A stretch of 64,000 bases of DNA from positions 2,046,001-2,110,000 of the forward strand of contig NZ_LT906465.1 in assembly GCF_900187185.1 (NCBI RefSeq), read 5' to 3'. Shown one piece after another: positions 17,714-40,970 of the stretch. The stretch comes from Chryseobacterium taklimakanense. GTDB lineage: Bacteria > Bacteroidota > Bacteroidia > Flavobacteriales > Weeksellaceae. Position 1 is the stretch's first letter. The number at the start of each line of letters is the position of its first letter. The notes beneath the pieces are model-generated. The model was not told where the DNA came from. It did no database searches and saw only the letters and a list, made by a program, of their open reading frames with translations. The position numbers and the translations under genes were made by a program.

Positions 17714-19024
17714 ATGAGCAATATTGTCGCCATCGTTGGACGCCCCAACGTAGGAAAATCCACACTTTTCAACCGTTTACTTGAAAGAAGGGAGGCCATT
17801 GTAGATTCTACAGCCGGCGTCACCCGTGACCGACACTACGGAAAATCCGACTGGAACGGTGTAGATTTCACCGTCATCGATACAGGCGGTTACGAAGTCA
17901 ATACAGAAGATATTTTTCAGGAAGAAATTTCAAAGCAGGTGCAGTTGGCCATCGATGAAGCCACATCGATTATTTTTATGATGAATGTGGAAGAAGGCCT
18001 TACCGATACCGACCGGGAGATTTACGAAATGCTGCGCCGAAGCGGAAAACCAACGTATATAGTGGTCAACAAAGTGGATTCTGCAAAAGAAGAACTGGCG
18101 GCCACAGAATTCTATTCCTTAGGAATTGAAAAATATTACACTTTATCGTCCGCAACAGGTTCCGGAACCGGAGAACTGCTTGATGATATTGTCAAAGATT
18201 TCCCTACTAAAGATTACAAAGATCCATTTGAAGGCTTGCCCAAAATTACCATCGCCGGAAGGCCTAATGTCGGGAAGTCGACATTAACCAATGCGCTTTT
18301 AGACAATGAGAGAAATATCGTGACCGATATTGCAGGTACAACGAGAGATTCCATTGAGACGCTTTATAACAAATTCGGGCATGAGTTTGTGCTGGTAGAT
18401 ACCGCCGGAATGAGAAGGAAATCCAAGGTTAATGAGGATTTGGAGTTTTATTCCGTCATGCGTTCCGTCCGTGCGATTGAAAATTCGGATGTGGTCATTA
18501 TAATGGTGGATGCAACACAGGGCTGGGAATCTCAGGATATGAACATCTTTGGGATAGCACAGAAAAACCGCAAGGGCATCGTGATTTTGGTGAACAAGTG
18601 GGACCTTATCGAAGACAAGCAAACCAATACGATGCGTGATTTCGAAGCAGCCATTAAAAACAAAATCGGGCAGTTTACGGATATTCCGGTGCTGTTTGTT
18701 TCGGCTTTAACCAAGCAAAGAATCCTCAAAGCCGTAGATACCGCGATGGAAGTGTACGAAAACCGTAAAAAGAAAATCAAAACGTCACAACTGAACGAGG
18801 TGATGCTGCCGATTTTTGAAAACAATCCGCCACCTGCACTGAAAGGAAAATACATCAAGATCAAATACTGCGTACAGTTAGGAACGCCGAGTCCGCAATT
18901 TGTATTTTTCTGTAACCTTCCGCAATACGTGAAAGAACCTTACAAGCGCTTTACCGAAAACCAACTGCGTAAAAACTTTGGCTTTACCGGAGTTCCGATT
19001 GAGGTTTATTTCAGGCAGAAGTGA
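17714..19024 (+). CDS. der: Ribosome biogenesis GTPase Der (EngA)
   Basis: Double-GTPase needed for 50S subunit maturation. The two G domains each have a P-loop GRPNVGKST (about residues 8 and 181), DTGG/DTAGM and NKVD/NKWD. They are followed by the KH-like C-terminal domain ending [12 protein letters not shown] chose the ATG at 17714 because the protein then begins [11 protein letters not shown], as the family does; the frame is open upstream to a TTG at 17681. The stop codon TGA (19022-19024) is also the first three bases of an 8-bp repeat array. Confidence 0.97.
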
Positions 19025-19077
19025 TGTGGTGATTTGGTGATGTGATGATGTGATGATTTGATGATGCGATGATATGC
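19022..19077 (+). repeat. Left arm: seven 8-bp units TGATNYGR-like
   Basis: Seven units in exact 8-base register: TGATGTGG, TGATTTGG, TGATGTGA, TGATGTGA, TGATTTGA, TGATGCGA, TGATATGC. The first unit supplies the stop codon of der. The array faces an inverted array of the same unit after the four-helix-bundle gene. Confidence 0.9.
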
Positions 19078-19129
19078 TTTTGGGATGGATTGCTTTAGAG
19101 ATTTTATTAAATTTGATGAAAATTAGTTT

Positions 19130-19477
19130 GTGGAAAATAAAAATGAAATCTTAGATTTGGGAATTCGATTTTCTTTGAAAATCATTGAATTTACAGAATT
19201 ATTGGAAAGTCAGCGCAAATTTGTCATTGCGAATCAACTGTTAAAATGTGGAACTTCGATCGGAGCAAATATTTTCGAAGCGCAGTCAGCTGAAAGCAGG
19301 AACGATTTCCTTCACAAACTGAAAATATCGGATAAAGAGGCTAAAGAAACAGAATATTGGTTATTGTTGTGCGAATTAGCACAGTCATATCCTTTTGATC
19401 CGGAACTTAAAGCGATGCTCACAAGTATTCAAAAATTACTGTCAAAAATAATATCTTCTTCAAAACGAAACACCTGA
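19130..19477 (+). CDS. Four-helix bundle protein (S23/bAvd-like)
   Basis: A 115-residue all-helical protein. Family features are present: N-terminal FSLKIIEFTELL, VIANQLLKCGTSIGANIFEAQSA in the middle (about 38-60), then KLKISDKEAKETEYWLLL (about 69-86). This is the four-helix bundle family first seen as the 23S rRNA intervening-sequence protein and related to the Avd accessory protein of diversity-generating retroelements. The start is a GTG at 19130; no ATG lies near. It is enclosed between inverted 8-bp arrays that overlap the flanking der stop and upp start codons, so the gene and arrays look like one inserted unit. Confidence 0.9.
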   Translation: MENKNEILDLGIRFSLKIIEFTELLESQRKFVIANQLLKCGTSIGANIFEAQSAESRNDFLHKLKISDKEAKETEYWLLLCELAQSYPFDPELKAMLTSIQKLLSKIISSSKRNT

Positions 19478-19483
19478 TAGCCA

Positions 19484-19571
19484 ATCATCACATCATCACA
19501 TCACCACATCATCCCATCACCACATTAACCCATCACCGCATCAACACATTATCACATCATCACATCATCAT
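19484..19571 (-). repeat. Right arm: eleven 8-bp units, inverse of the left arm
   Basis: Eleven 8-base units starting ATCATCAC, ATCATCAC, ATCACCAC, ATCATCCC and ending ATCATCAT, the reverse complement of the left-arm theme (GTGATGAT). The last unit overlaps the ATG of upp (19570-19572). Confidence 0.9.
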
Positions 19572-20220
19572 GGTAACAATTCTTTCCGACCAGTTTTCCC
19601 TTGTCAATTCCTGGATCAACGATTTAAGAAACGTTGAGGTGCAAACCGACCGAATGAAATTCCGCAGAAATATGGAACGCATCGGGGAAATTGCCGCTTT
19701 CGAGATTTCCAAAGGTCTGGAACAGAAAGAACTCGAAATTACCACGCCTTTGGATAAAATCAAAGCGAGGGAGATTGCAGTTCAGCCCGTAATTACTACC
19801 ATTTTACGCGCAGGAGTTCCTTTGTTTCAGGGAATTTTAAATTATTTTGATAAAGCCGACTGCGGTTTCGTTGCCGCCTACAGAAAGCACGACGCTAACG
19901 ATTATTTCTCCATAAAGCAGGATTATCTTACCTGCCCGAATATCGACGGAAGACCTTTAATCGTCGCGGATCCCATGCTGGCGACAGGAGCAAGTTTGAT
20001 CGAAGCGCTGAAAGATCTGTTAAACCACGGAAAACCCACGCAGTTACATATCGTGGCAGCCATTGCGTCCAGAATTGGCGTAGAAACCGTTCAAAATGCC
20101 TATCCCGAGGCCAAGATTTGGATTGGTGCGCTGGATGAAAACCTGACTGCCAAAGGTTATATTACACCCGGGCTTGGCGATGCAGGCGATTTGAGTTACG
20201 GGGAGAAACTTCAAAGATAA
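19570..20220 (+). CDS. upp: Uracil phosphoribosyltransferase
   Basis: Pyrimidine salvage: uracil plus PRPP to UMP. The 216-residue type I PRTase has the PRPP-binding motif VADPMLATGASLIEAL (about 136-151). The C-terminal segment GYITPGLGDAGD (about 197-208) recognises uracil. The start ATG is built on the last unit of the upstream repeat array, so any change in the array length or its end would touch the translation start. Confidence 0.96.
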   Translation: MVTILSDQFSLVNSWINDLRNVEVQTDRMKFRRNMERIGEIAAFEISKGLEQKELEITTPLDKIKAREIAVQPVITTILRAGVPLFQGILNYFDKADCGFVAAYRKHDANDYFSIKQDYLTCPNIDGRPLIVADPMLATGASLIEALKDLLNHGKPTQLHIVAAIASRIGVETVQNAYPEAKIWIGALDENLTAKGYITPGLGDAGDLSYGEKLQR

Positions 20221-22811: not shown

Positions 22812-24389
22812 ATGGAAACACAAACGCAAATGAAAGTTCTTGCAAATGAGCAGTTTCAGGATATTTTCTCGCCGGAATTGGTCAATTTCCTCACTGAACT
22901 TCATCAAAAATTTAACGGAAGGCGCCTTGAGCTTCTAACCGCAAGAAAAGCCAAACAGAATGAATTTGATCTGGGGAAACTGCCTTCTTTTCCGAAGGAG
23001 ACCGAAGAAATCCGAAACGGTGATTGGGTTTGTAATCCTTTGCCGAAGGATCTTTTAGACAGACGCGTCGAGATTACGGGGCCGGTTGACAGAAAAATGG
23101 TCATCAACGCCCTGAACTCCGGCTCATCAACTTTTATGGCAGATTTTGAGGATTCCAATGCCCCGACCTGGCAAAACTGTATGGAAGGGCAAATCAATCT
23201 TTCAGATGCCGTCAACAAAACCATTTCATTTGAAAACAAAGCCGGCAAAAAATATCAGCTTGGTGAAAAGACTGCGGTGCTATTGGTTCGTCCGCGCGGG
23301 CTTCATCTTGATGAGAAACACATTGAATTTGATGGTGAAACGGCTTCCGGATCGCTCACCGATTTTGGAATTTTCTTTTTCCGAAATGCCAAAAAACTGG
23401 TTGAAAACGGCAGCGGACCTTATTTCTATCTCCCGAAACTGGAGCATTATGAGGAAGCGAGATGGTGGAATGATGTCTTTGTTTTTGCCCAGGAATATGT
23501 AGGTATTCAGCAGGGAACGGTCAAGGCGACGGTGCTTATCGAGACGATAACTGCTTCTTTTCAGTTGGATGAAATTCTTTATGAATTGAAAGAACACAGC
23601 GCTGGCCTCAATTGCGGTCGTTGGGATTATATCTTTTCCTACATCAAAAAATTCAGAAACCTGCCCGAATTTTTAGTTCCTGACCGTGATCAGGTGACGA
23701 TGACTTCGCCGTTTATGAGTGCGTATTCCAAAAGGGTTATCCAGGTTTGCCACAAACGCGGCGTTCATGCGATGGGAGGAATGGCAGCCCAAATTCCGGT
23801 GAAAAATAATGAAGAGGAAAACGAAACAGCCTACGCAAAAGTGCGTGCCGACAAAGAACGCGAGGTGAAAAACGGCCATGACGGAACGTGGGTTGCACAT
23901 CCGGGACTGGTTCCTGTAGCGAAGGAGATTTTTGATGAATTTATGCCGACACCTAACCAAATTGATAAAAAACACAATGACTATCATATATCTGAAGCCG
24001 ATTTGCTGGAAATTCCGAAAGGAACAATCACCGAAAATGGCGTAAGAAAAAACATCAACGTGGGGATTCTTTATATCGAATCATGGCTGATGGGAACCGG
24101 AGCCGCTGCACTTTATAACTTGATGGAAGACGCTGCAACCGCAGAGATTTCTAGGACACAGGTTTGGCAGTGGCTTAAAAACCGGGCAAAACTGGACGAC
24201 GGCAGAACTTTAACTCCGGAAATGGTATTGGACTGGGAAAAAGAAGAGCTGGAAAATATCAAAGATTATGTTGGCGAAGAACGTTACGCCAGCGGAAAAT
24301 TTGAGCTCGCAACGGAACTTTTCAATGATTTGGTGCTCAATGAAAACTTCGATGAATTCCTTACTCTGAAAGCTTATCAGTACTTGTAA
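22812..24389 (+). CDS. aceB: Malate synthase A
   Basis: Second enzyme of the glyoxylate shunt: glyoxylate plus acetyl-CoA to malate. A 525-residue isoform A protein. Conserved segments include TFMADFEDSNAPTW (about 112-125), LLVRPRGLHLDEKH, ATVLIETITASFQL with an acidic residue of the Mg site, and GLNCGRWDYIFSYIKKF (about 265-281). The C-terminal NVGILYIESWLMGTGAAALYN region closes the active site. It is 171 bases upstream of aceA on the same strand, so the shunt genes are paired; a 7-bp repeat array lies between them. Confidence 0.96.
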   Translation: METQTQMKVLANEQFQDIFSPELVNFLTELHQKFNGRRLELLTARKAKQNEFDLGKLPSFPKETEEIRNGDWVCNPLPKDLLDRRVEITGPVDRKMVINALNSGSSTFMADFEDSNAPTWQNCMEGQINLSDAVNKTISFENKAGKKYQLGEKTAVLLVRPRGLHLDEKHIEFDGETASGSLTDFGIFFFRNAKKLVENGSGPYFYLPKLEHYEEARWWNDVFVFAQEYVGIQQGTVKATVLIETITASFQLDEILYELKEHSAGLNCGRWDYIFSYIKKFRNLPEFLVPDRDQVTMTSPFMSAYSKRVIQVCHKRGVHAMGGMAAQIPVKNNEEENETAYAKVRADKEREVKNGHDGTWVAHPGLVPVAKEIFDEFMPTPNQIDKKHNDYHISEADLLEIPKGTITENGVRKNINVGILYIESWLMGTGAAALYNLMEDAATAEISRTQVWQWLKNRAKLDDGRTLTPEMVLDWEKEELENIKDYVGEERYASGKFELATELFNDLVLNENFDEFLTLKAYQYL

Positions 24390-24396
24390 AATGCAG

Positions 24397-24466
24397 AATG
24401 TACAATGTACAATGTATAAAGTACAATGTATAAAGTACAATGTATAAAGTACAATGTAATATGTAC
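24397..24466 (+). repeat. Ten 7-bp units between aceB and aceA
   Basis: An array in exact 7-base register: AATGTAC twice, then AATGTAT/AAAGTAC three times, ending AATGTAA, TATGTAC. Units contain near-palindromic GTACAATGTAC, so the array can fold. It begins 8 bases after the aceB stop. Confidence 0.85.
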
Positions 24467-36698: not shown

Positions 36699-36885
36699 CA
36701 CTCCCTTTGGCGCTAATAATTGTTTGTAAATCTGTAAAATAATGAATATCAACTCTTTCGGATTGATCGGAAGAGGTTTCGTGTTTTATACCTGTACAGC
36801 ATTTTTTTTCGCCTGAGGAAAACCGAAAAATATTTTGCACTACTCCGTGAAAAGATATACCGGCGTTGCAGTTAGAAAGAGTTTC

Positions 36886-36988
36886 AGAGCCCAGAGCCCA
36901 GAGCCAAGATTTGATACGGAAGAATTTCTGATAGCGCCAAATATCTTCAACTTCCTTCATCTCGAATCTCGAATCTCAGATCTCAGTC
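36886..36988. repeat. Inverted 7-bp arrays in the rpoB leader
   Basis: Left arm AGAGCCC, AGAGCCC, AGAGCCA, AGATTTG (36886-36913). Right arm CTCGAAT, CTCGAAT, CTCAGAT, CTCAGTC (36961-36988), whose complement gives GAG-led 7-mers like the left arm. A 47-base spacer lies between. Confidence 0.7.
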
Positions 36989-40885: not shown

Positions 40886-40888
40886 TAG

Positions 40889-40947
40889 ACACGAGATACG
40901 AGACACGAGATGCAAGACCTATTAATCTTGACTCTCGGCTCTTGGTT
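40889..40947. repeat. Inverted 7-bp arrays between rpoB and rpoC
   Basis: Left arm ACACGAG, ATACGAG, ACACGAG, ATGCAAG (40889-40916). Right arm CTTGACT, CTCGGCT, CTTGGTT (40927-40947), whose complement is AACCAAG, AGCCGAG, AGTCAAG. Both arms share the unit ANNCRAG in exact 7-base register, with 10 bases between. Confidence 0.85.
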
Positions 40948-40970
40948 CTTTTAATCTTAAAAAACAAAAA

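Follow-up and report, generated by a model that had tools for sequence, protein, structure and literature searches.

The der–upp locus

We analysed a stretch of 64,000 nucleotides (the window) from the single-contig 2.76-Mb genome of Chryseobacterium taklimakanense (NZ_LT906465.1, positions 2,046,001 to 2,110,000; below, the own genome), and in particular an element at 19022-19571 in which a gene of the 23S rRNA intervening-sequence protein family (IVP, or S23) lies between inverted arrays of period 8, as identified with Tandem Repeats Finder (TRF) and Pfam. Positions are window coordinates unless another stretch is named, all features of this locus are on the forward strand, and L and G numbers are our own labels for loci and genomes. 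Outside the element lie its left neighbour der (engA), a GTPase gene (17714-19024; Pfam MMR_HSR1 and KH_dom-like), and its right neighbour upp, encoding uracil phosphoribosyltransferase (19570-20220; Pfam UPRTase). The left arm (19022-19073) holds 6.5 copies of the 8-bp unit TGATGTGA (TRF period 8, score 69) and is followed by a spacer (19074-19129) that prolongs an imperfect stem, as seen in the RNA fold and in the flank alignment, which extends about 40 bp past the array. The gene itself (19130-19477) starts with GTG, encodes 115 amino acids and matches PF05635 (74 bits, cut-off 33.8) and TIGR02436 (82.6 bits); PF05635 is its sole Pfam match at E <= 0.001, and it lacks a Y1 (HUH) transposase domain. 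The right arm (19484-19570) consists of 10.9 copies of ATCATCAC, the inverted complement of the left arm by the complementarity test (TRF period 8, score 104). An earlier note on this DNA, made from its letters alone, had described 8-bp inverted arrays running from the der stop to the upp start around a four-helix-bundle gene of this length, and both parts of that description are confirmed, the latter by the two family models and by an AlphaFold2 structure model.

Complementarity between the two flanks of the window gene reaches 45, compared with a maximum of 29 in 200 dinucleotide shuffles and of 18 when the left flank is mispaired with the right flanks of the nine other loci in the own genome. 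The arms pair as RNA into a long stem enclosing the open reading frame (ORF), with a minimum free energy of -155.4 (-125.4 +/- 6.8 in 100 shuffles, z -4.4). Chance low complexity is ruled out by the shuffles, the mispairing and the control genes described below, and the earlier proposal of a discrete unit holds in this respect. The left array begins on the T of the der stop codon TGA (der ends at 19024) and the last base of the right array is the A of the upp ATG (19570). This overlap with the flanking codons, to which the earlier note gave weight, is real; it is probably incidental, because in L020, an orthologous der-IVP-upp locus from another genus (63% protein identity, each the other's best match in the gene set compared), the left arm begins a few bases past the der stop. 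The window element is not inside an rRNA gene, as it lies between der and upp and no Rfam match was found in L008.

IVP loci in the own genome

The observation extends beyond the single locus of the earlier note, to ten loci in the own genome and to many phyla. Eleven PF05635 rows were found in the own genome and are read as ten genes, one of them split (L010 and L011; L010 was used for complementarity and base skew and omitted from IVP pair and junction comparisons). Arrays of period 7-9 were detected by TRF on both sides of nine of the ten loci, while at L010 there is a TRF array on one side and a weak 9-bp match on the other. At all ten loci the flank complementarity equals or exceeds the best of 200 dinucleotide shuffles, with L009 tying. 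The corresponding baseline, from 405 ORFs in the window and 20 further stretches (464 kb, including a few IVP genes), has a median of 12, a 99th percentile of 26 and a top value of 84. By eye and by TRF the ten loci share no single palindromic arm sequence; the unit varies by locus and may have 8 bp (TGATGTGA, GTTAGTGG, AATTTGAA), 7 bp (TGTACAA, AATTTTG, GATACGA, AAGAGCC, TTAATAA) or 9 bp (GTTATGGTG).

Survey of the bacterial family and control genes

Of the 60 genomes sampled from the same bacterial family, 51 contain PF05635. The family set comprises the best-scoring IVP locus from each of 29 further genomes, and the control 30 ParE toxin loci from the same 60 genomes, a small scattered gene family; both were chosen by score, not at random. 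Significant flank complementarity (p <= 0.01) was found at 24 of the 29 IVP loci with 250-bp flanks and at 22 with 220-bp flanks, compared with 1 of the 30 ParE loci (22/29 versus 1/30, Fisher 3e-9). Arrays stand on both sides of 18/29 IVP genes and of no ParE gene (0/30), and on at least one side of 25/29 and 3/30, respectively. Searching the protein family for flanking short-period inverted arrays, a check suggested in the earlier note, was fruitful both here (22/29) and across phyla (45/79, see below).

Regularities of the arms

We called a locus arm-positive if at most 1 in 100 shuffles was as good, which applies to 83 of the 129 loci with usable flanks. The arm on the 5' side of the gene is rich in G in these 83 loci (29.5% G, 10.5% C), with G exceeding C in 73 and C exceeding G in 5 (sign test 1.5e-16). 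The remaining flank is less skewed (58 versus 20 loci G- versus C-richer; 2672 G, 2200 C), and the best complementary segments of 29 ParE loci divide 15 versus 10; L270, the sole ParE locus passing the complementarity test, was omitted from this control, where its offset differs.

The period of the repeat is the same on both sides at 53 of the 54 loci where both arrays score >= 12, with 36.7 expected from the margins (44 loci at 7/7, six at 8/8, two at 9/9 and one at 10/10). A flank is strictly most complementary to its own partner at 9/10 own, 33/79 cross-phylum contig and 5/11 plasmid loci, with about one expected per group. The gene also tends to point the same way as both neighbours (26/27 determinable family loci, 9/10 own loci and 49/66 determinable cross-phylum loci), the baseline being 180 of 327 gene triples in the own sample. 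No terminal sequence is common across the flanks of the own, family and cross-phylum loci, and across different junctions IVP similarity and arm similarity show no trend. Values for loci at one and the same junction contain coding sequence from the flanks and were set aside.

Filled and empty sites

The der-upp junction is filled by an armed IVP gene in the window and in L020, and in six relatives (L014, L015, L017, L018, L021, L023) der and upp are adjacent with neither gene nor array, which supplies the empty sites that the earlier note had thought worth looking for. A junction between thiolase and acyl-CoA dehydrogenase genes holds one IVP subfamily with TTTTGAA-like arms in the own genome and another subfamily with AGAATAA-like arms in three relatives, so that the gene and its two arms change as a set.

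Nine Nostoc plasmids that share one operon make the strongest case for insertion. At its junction 2, three plasmids carry an element that we call IVP-A (GGAGTCA arms), five have a 3-bp gap and one has unrelated sequence; at junction 3, one plasmid carries an IVP-B element (GGGGAAA arms) and eight have gaps of -1 to 4 bp; at junction 1, five have gene-less hairpins with, by eye, the same heptamers and four have none. Elements in Nostoc are 420 and 505 bp long, and that of the window about 550 bp. L293 is an internal-deletion copy of an IVP element that has kept both arms, while L295 and L299 both retain the left arm, the former with the beginning of the gene and the latter with a few bases of it. 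In L176 a gene-less armed element interrupts the IVP-A gene, and by eye a second IVP gene is interrupted in this way in L298. A 201-bp query over the L176 insertion, which includes about 30 bases of the IVP gene, matched 94 places in 43 plasmid records, with at least 80% of it present at a single place in 27 of the records, and three fetched copies have near-identical ends and unrelated flanks. The IVP-A element occurs at a further site common to Trichormus and Scytonema (97% over 1.8 kb), with L294 a remnant at the Trichormus site. Aulosira has a separate IVP-A site that matches L296, from Trichormus variabilis ATCC 29413, arm to arm only (82% over 416 bp); the 416-bp match between L296 and L090 runs from one arm to the other and does not extend into the flanks.

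IVP loci in other phyla, on plasmids and in 23S rRNA

A plasmid search with the IVP protein of L002 gave 19 records, 17 of them cyanobacterial, and 11 loci were fetched. Six of these beat all 200 shuffles for flank complementarity, from Pseudanabaena, Nostoc edaphicum, Nostoc ATCC 53789, Calothrix brevissima, Gemmatirosa and Azospirillum. The Pseudanabaena gene (L085) lies between cas6 and cas4 and is accompanied by long AAAAGCT/AAAAGCC arrays. The cross-phylum set consists of named genome contigs, the best 80 of 562 confirmed stretches, of which 79 could be tested (L168 was dropped for a short flank); by record title it covers Bacteroidota, Chloroflexota, Acidobacteriota, Planctomycetota, Pseudomonadota, Verrucomicrobiota, Cyanobacteria, candidate phyla and others. 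Complementarity is significant at 45/79 of these loci at p <= 0.01 and at 49/79 at p <= 0.05. An Rfam scan around the 80 loci, again the best 80 of 562, found no rRNA and one tRNA.

In Azospirillum lipoferum 4B (L095) the IVP gene is located within a large-subunit rRNA gene (RF02541, 2520.7 bits), between inverted 7-bp arms with a complementarity of 26 (maximum 16 in shuffles). Because an armed IVP gene sits within a 23S rRNA gene here, the classical 23S rRNA intervening sequence appears to be just one of the places where a wider class is found. The earlier note had linked the protein both to the rRNA intervening sequence and to Avd, the accessory subunit of diversity-generating retroelements; the former link is supported, and the latter weakly, by fold.

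The IVP protein

The AlphaFold2 model of the window protein (pLDDT 94.5) has four helices, and its closest structures in Foldseek are 2rld (E 3.6e-7) and 2gsc (E 7.8e-4; the product of XCC0516 of Xanthomonas), each deposited with five chains. Avd structures are remote matches (4dwl, 8ub7/8ub8; TM about 0.7, E 0.07 and above), with TM 0.69-0.73 and E 0.13-0.23 for 4dwl. Five residues, Q36, S43, N47, E50 and E73, are invariant in 57 sequences. The ratio of nonsynonymous to synonymous substitution rates (dN/dS) is 0.02-0.21 in IVP pairs with estimable dS, several dS values being near or above 1. This indicates purifying selection on IVP genes, and therefore that the protein is used.

Candidate enzymes acting in trans

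Two kinds of enzyme were considered as partners of the IVP protein, reverse transcriptases and Y1 transposases, and their counts were compared with those of IVP genes as match rows (the own genome counts 11). A reverse-transcriptase partner is disfavoured: the own genome has no RVT_1 match, the domain is found in 14 of 60 relatives and in 4 of the 20 genomes with >= 6 IVP rows, and IVP and RVT_1 counts are uncorrelated (rho -0.07).

Y1_Tnp is present in 35 of the 60 genomes, including 19 of the 20 with >= 6 IVP rows and none of the nine IVP-free ones, and its count correlates with that of IVP genes (rho 0.66, 0.54 after genome size; the p value of 7e-9 is too small because related genomes are not independent). 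The ParE-IVP control gives rho 0.34, and 0.22 after genome size. IVP genes are still present in 16 of the 25 Y1-free genomes. Of the 20 Y1 loci examined, 15 come from high in the match list and five were chosen for their nearness to an IVP gene. By eye their flanks are mostly palindromes rather than tandem arrays, with an array on either side at 4/20, and five sampled proteins score above the cut-off of the IS200/IS605 model and below that of the REP-associated model. Six of the Y1 loci lie at junctions that we take from the protein sequences to be fadB-fadA (L307, L316, L319, L320, L322) and carA-carB (L312), two of which (L307 and L312) are among the 15 not chosen for IVP nearness. Both junctions hold IVP elements elsewhere, so two unrelated one-gene hairpin elements use some common landing places.

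At L307, the fadB-fadA junction of G011, a TTAGAAG-type array that is elsewhere an IVP arm unit adjoins a Y1 gene with palindromic flanks, and the locus is possibly a composite of the two element types. The sole Y1_Tnp match in the own genome, a weak one, is at L321 (own genome 1147000-1151500); its flanks are palindromic (AACGCGATAAATCGCGTT), and the IVP locus L005 is about 2.5 kb away.

Arrays without an IVP gene

The sampled 464 kb of the own genome contain 29 non-coding arrays, five of which are arms of IVP loci, and ten gene-less inverted-array candidates, whose orientation is mixed and whose number is too small to judge. Three places with gene-less arrays lie in the window, none with an assigned strand: a 7-bp array TGTACAA/TGTATAA at 24385-24465 (TRF) that by eye resembles the arms of L002 in the own genome; two 7-bp arrays, CAGAGCC and ATCTCGA, upstream of rpoB at 36885-36986 (TRF; of opposite sense by eye); and a 7-bp array (40887-40918 by TRF) followed by an inverted partner (by eye) in the rpoB-rpoC gap at 40886-40952. 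In the 20 sampled relatives, 0-3 arrays were found per genome sample away from IVP genes (G015 includes 2465 bases read as N, and the IVP-free G035 was left out).

Three further places in the own genome deserve mention. A gene that from its sequence we take to be paaA (L044:9500-10810, own genome about 1153500-1154810) is an operon gene enclosed by long double arrays on both sides, of AATGTAAC and TGGTAAAT types, that are mutually inverted. A cluster of 9-bp TCTGTGTGA/CACAGATCA arrays in several copies, some inverted, occupies L041:6000-12700 (about 736000-742700), where there is no IVP gene among the PF05635 matches of the own genome. In L040:2400-5400 (about 594400-597400), small genes are parted by repeated imperfect palindromes of the AACATTG...GTTATCTGC type, an arrangement that resembles integron gene cassettes with attC sites.

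Relation to known systems

Among the closest known systems is the 23S rRNA intervening sequence (IVS) with an S23 ORF, described in Coxiella, Leptospira, Salmonella and others (PMC4990558), where the ORF lies in the loop of a stem formed by terminal inverted repeats, as in the window element. The Coxiella IVS has tandem heptamers GACAGAT upstream of the ORF in numbers that vary by strain (PMC4990558); this is the closest printed hint of the arrays described here, and the Azospirillum IVS found here has inverted 7-bp arms. The same paper calls the origin of the IVS unclear and suggests that the Coxiella ORF is expendable (PMC4990558), whereas the IVP genes examined here are under purifying selection. 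The window element also differs from the IVS in its position between two protein genes and its longer arrays of 8-bp units, and IVP elements in general by their occurrence at many operon junctions along with gene-less and deleted relatives.

REPINs and their RAYT genes (PMC3116915) resemble IVP elements in having one gene between inverted repeats and dispersed gene-less inverted pairs, and Y1 genes are found at some IVP-element junctions. IVP elements differ in that an IVP gene takes the place of the Y1 transposase and the arms are locus-specific tandem arrays without a conserved palindrome. The heptamer repeats GGGNATC (PMC4692102) and TAACTGA (PMC4679880) of cyanobacteria and Xanthomonas form 7-bp arrays that are mostly intergenic, as here; two Xanthomonas genomes have 70 and 75 inverted heptamer pairs, generally without association with mobile elements (PMC4692102), and for TAACTGA no mechanism of transmission was evident (PMC4679880). 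Here, in contrast, the arrays flank IVP genes, and a term search found neither S23 nor four helix in the one paper (PMC4692102) and neither 23S nor four helix in the other (PMC4679880). Avd is a four-helix bundle that may be of the same fold class as the window protein, and PF05635 has been noted to resemble it (PMC10053308); unlike a diversity-generating retroelement, the own genome has no reverse transcriptase match. In Flavobacterium columnare a four helix bundle gene has been reported between guanylate kinase and nucleotidyltransferase genes (PMC5524665). Our literature search, in which subscription journals were thinly covered and absence therefore means little, found nothing beyond the Coxiella heptamers that joins PF05635 genes with short-period inverted arrays, and the link may be new to the literature. 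Heptamer repeats of the short tandemly repeated repetitive (STRR) kind have been known in cyanobacteria since about 1990.

Interpretation and alternative explanations

We think it probable, though by a good way short of certain, that an IVP locus is a small mobile hairpin element, about half a kilobase in size, whose single gene encodes its own IVP protein and which is helped in trans. Its unit character, the regularities of its arms, the empty sites, the deletion copy and the selection on its gene are what was observed; the mechanism proposed here goes further. Each of the element's two inverted arms would repeat a unit of 7, 8 or 9 bp in tandem, and the IVP/S23 gene would occupy the loop. 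The IVP protein, which is probably pentameric as its solved relatives are, would hold the folded hairpin as RNA or single-stranded DNA and assist its insertion at junctions between expressed operon genes. An enzyme in trans would do the cutting and joining, the best candidate being a Y1 (HUH) transposase acting on the single-stranded hairpin, and not a reverse transcriptase. The arms may remain complementary in spite of sequence drift through the short period of the hairpin, which would allow one arm to serve for copying or repairing the other and let the two pair again with a shift of one unit. The rule that the G-rich arm comes first could reflect RNA or the non-template strand. The 23S rRNA intervening sequence would then be such an element that has inserted into rRNA, and among intergenic heptamer arrays many may be its gene-less relatives.

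Several observations weigh against this proposal. No transposition event was directly observed, and by eye there is no clear target-site duplication at the Nostoc junctions; to our knowledge, no catalytic activity of the IVP protein has been described. All 29 IVP pairs at >= 67% identity (among 38 loci) share flanking genes, and most IVP copies in this bacterial family are therefore old and vertically inherited in place. The arm test is failed by 34 of the 79 cross-phylum loci and by five of the 11 plasmid loci, among them L090 and L092, which fail because their annotated ORF extends into the right arm. The own partner is strictly best at only 8/29 family loci, again with about one expected per group, the arrays of L057 are direct and not inverted, and those nearest to the gene in L085 are also direct, with an inverted match farther upstream. 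The earlier note had made the idea of a unit depend on genes and arrays keeping company: genes with no array on either side (p <= 0.05) are a minority of seven among the 79 cross-phylum loci (L107, L111, L118, L128, L144, L152, L173), and gene-less arrays do occur, but at least one case, L293 on a Nostoc plasmid, is an internal-deletion copy. The idea that IVP-rich genomes hold more gene-less arrays is unsupported, as the number of non-coding arrays away from IVP genes does not differ significantly between IVP-free (5 in 444 kb) and IVP-rich samples (11 in 640 kb) and does not follow IVP number (rho 0.18, p 0.44); inverted arrays of this kind number three in eight IVP-free, two in four IVP-poor and none in eight IVP-rich samples. 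The highest complementarity of all, 84, surrounds paaA and not an IVP gene. Inverted flank complementarity is not specific to IVP genes, as it is also found at 16 of the 20 Y1 loci (p <= 0.01), and the link between Y1 and IVP counts is a correlation within one bacterial family.

The alternative that we take most seriously, while still doubting it, is that Y1/HUH transposases of the IS200/RAYT type alone move the arms, as proposed for REPINs, and that the IVP gene is a passive or addictive passenger. The Y1-IVP correlation, the presence of Y1 genes with complementary and mostly palindromic flanks at the same fadB-fadA and carA-carB junctions, and the sharp ends of the gene-less Nostoc copies without evident target duplication are all consistent with it. 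Against it stand the purifying selection on IVP and the presence of IVP genes in 16 of 25 Y1-free genomes, and the arm unit varies by locus, so there is no fixed sequence for a transposase to bind. It seems unlikely that IVP genes are instead ordinary cargo dropping into pre-existing inverted arrays that are an independent feature of the genome. The ten gene-less candidates and the abundance of arrays in the own genome, where five of 29 non-coding arrays are IVP arms, would suit such a view, but the empty sites have no arrays (six der-upp relatives, Nostoc gaps of -1 to 4 bp). In the 20 relatives, moreover, few arrays stand elsewhere than at IVP genes (0-3 per sample), compared with 25/29 IVP loci that have one on at least one side, and the ParE loci are mostly array-free (3/30 on either side).

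Purifying selection, co-directionality with the neighbours and the strong RNA hairpin could also be explained by a domesticated RNA device, in which hairpin and protein regulate or cut a polycistronic message and mobility is ancient only. The occupation of the fadB-fadA, carA-carB and der-upp junctions across genera fits this explanation, as does the cutting of such stems in rRNA by RNase III (PMC4990558). We consider it improbable, given that one junction can hold unrelated arm units and IVP subfamilies (L006 versus L067/L068/L070), that near-identical plasmids occur with and without the element, and that an internal-deletion copy exists. The proposal that we find hardest to credit is a retroelement in which an Avd-like IVP and a reverse transcriptase copy the hairpin RNA, perhaps with telomerase-like addition of G-rich repeats. 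It draws on the G-rich 5' arm, on the published resemblance of PF05635 to Avd (PMC10053308) and on a fold similarity with TM about 0.7 but E 0.07 and above, and is opposed by the RVT_1 results, from the own genome without a match to the 4/20 IVP-rich genomes and the rho of -0.07.

Beyond the single element, we would suggest more tentatively, with somewhat less than even confidence, that these loci represent a new and widespread class of bacterial element whose ends are set by form, as inverted short-period arrays of the same period with the G-rich arm first around a four-helix-bundle gene, and whose own mobility factor is IVP; intervening sequences, cyanobacterial heptamers and some Bacteroidota hairpins would be its traces. 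If this is true, intergenic heptamer repeats and rRNA intervening sequences would have a single, testable origin, a very small kind of gene-bearing mobile element would have ends that no sequence defines, and a protein family that is annotated simply as 'four helix bundle protein' would acquire a role.

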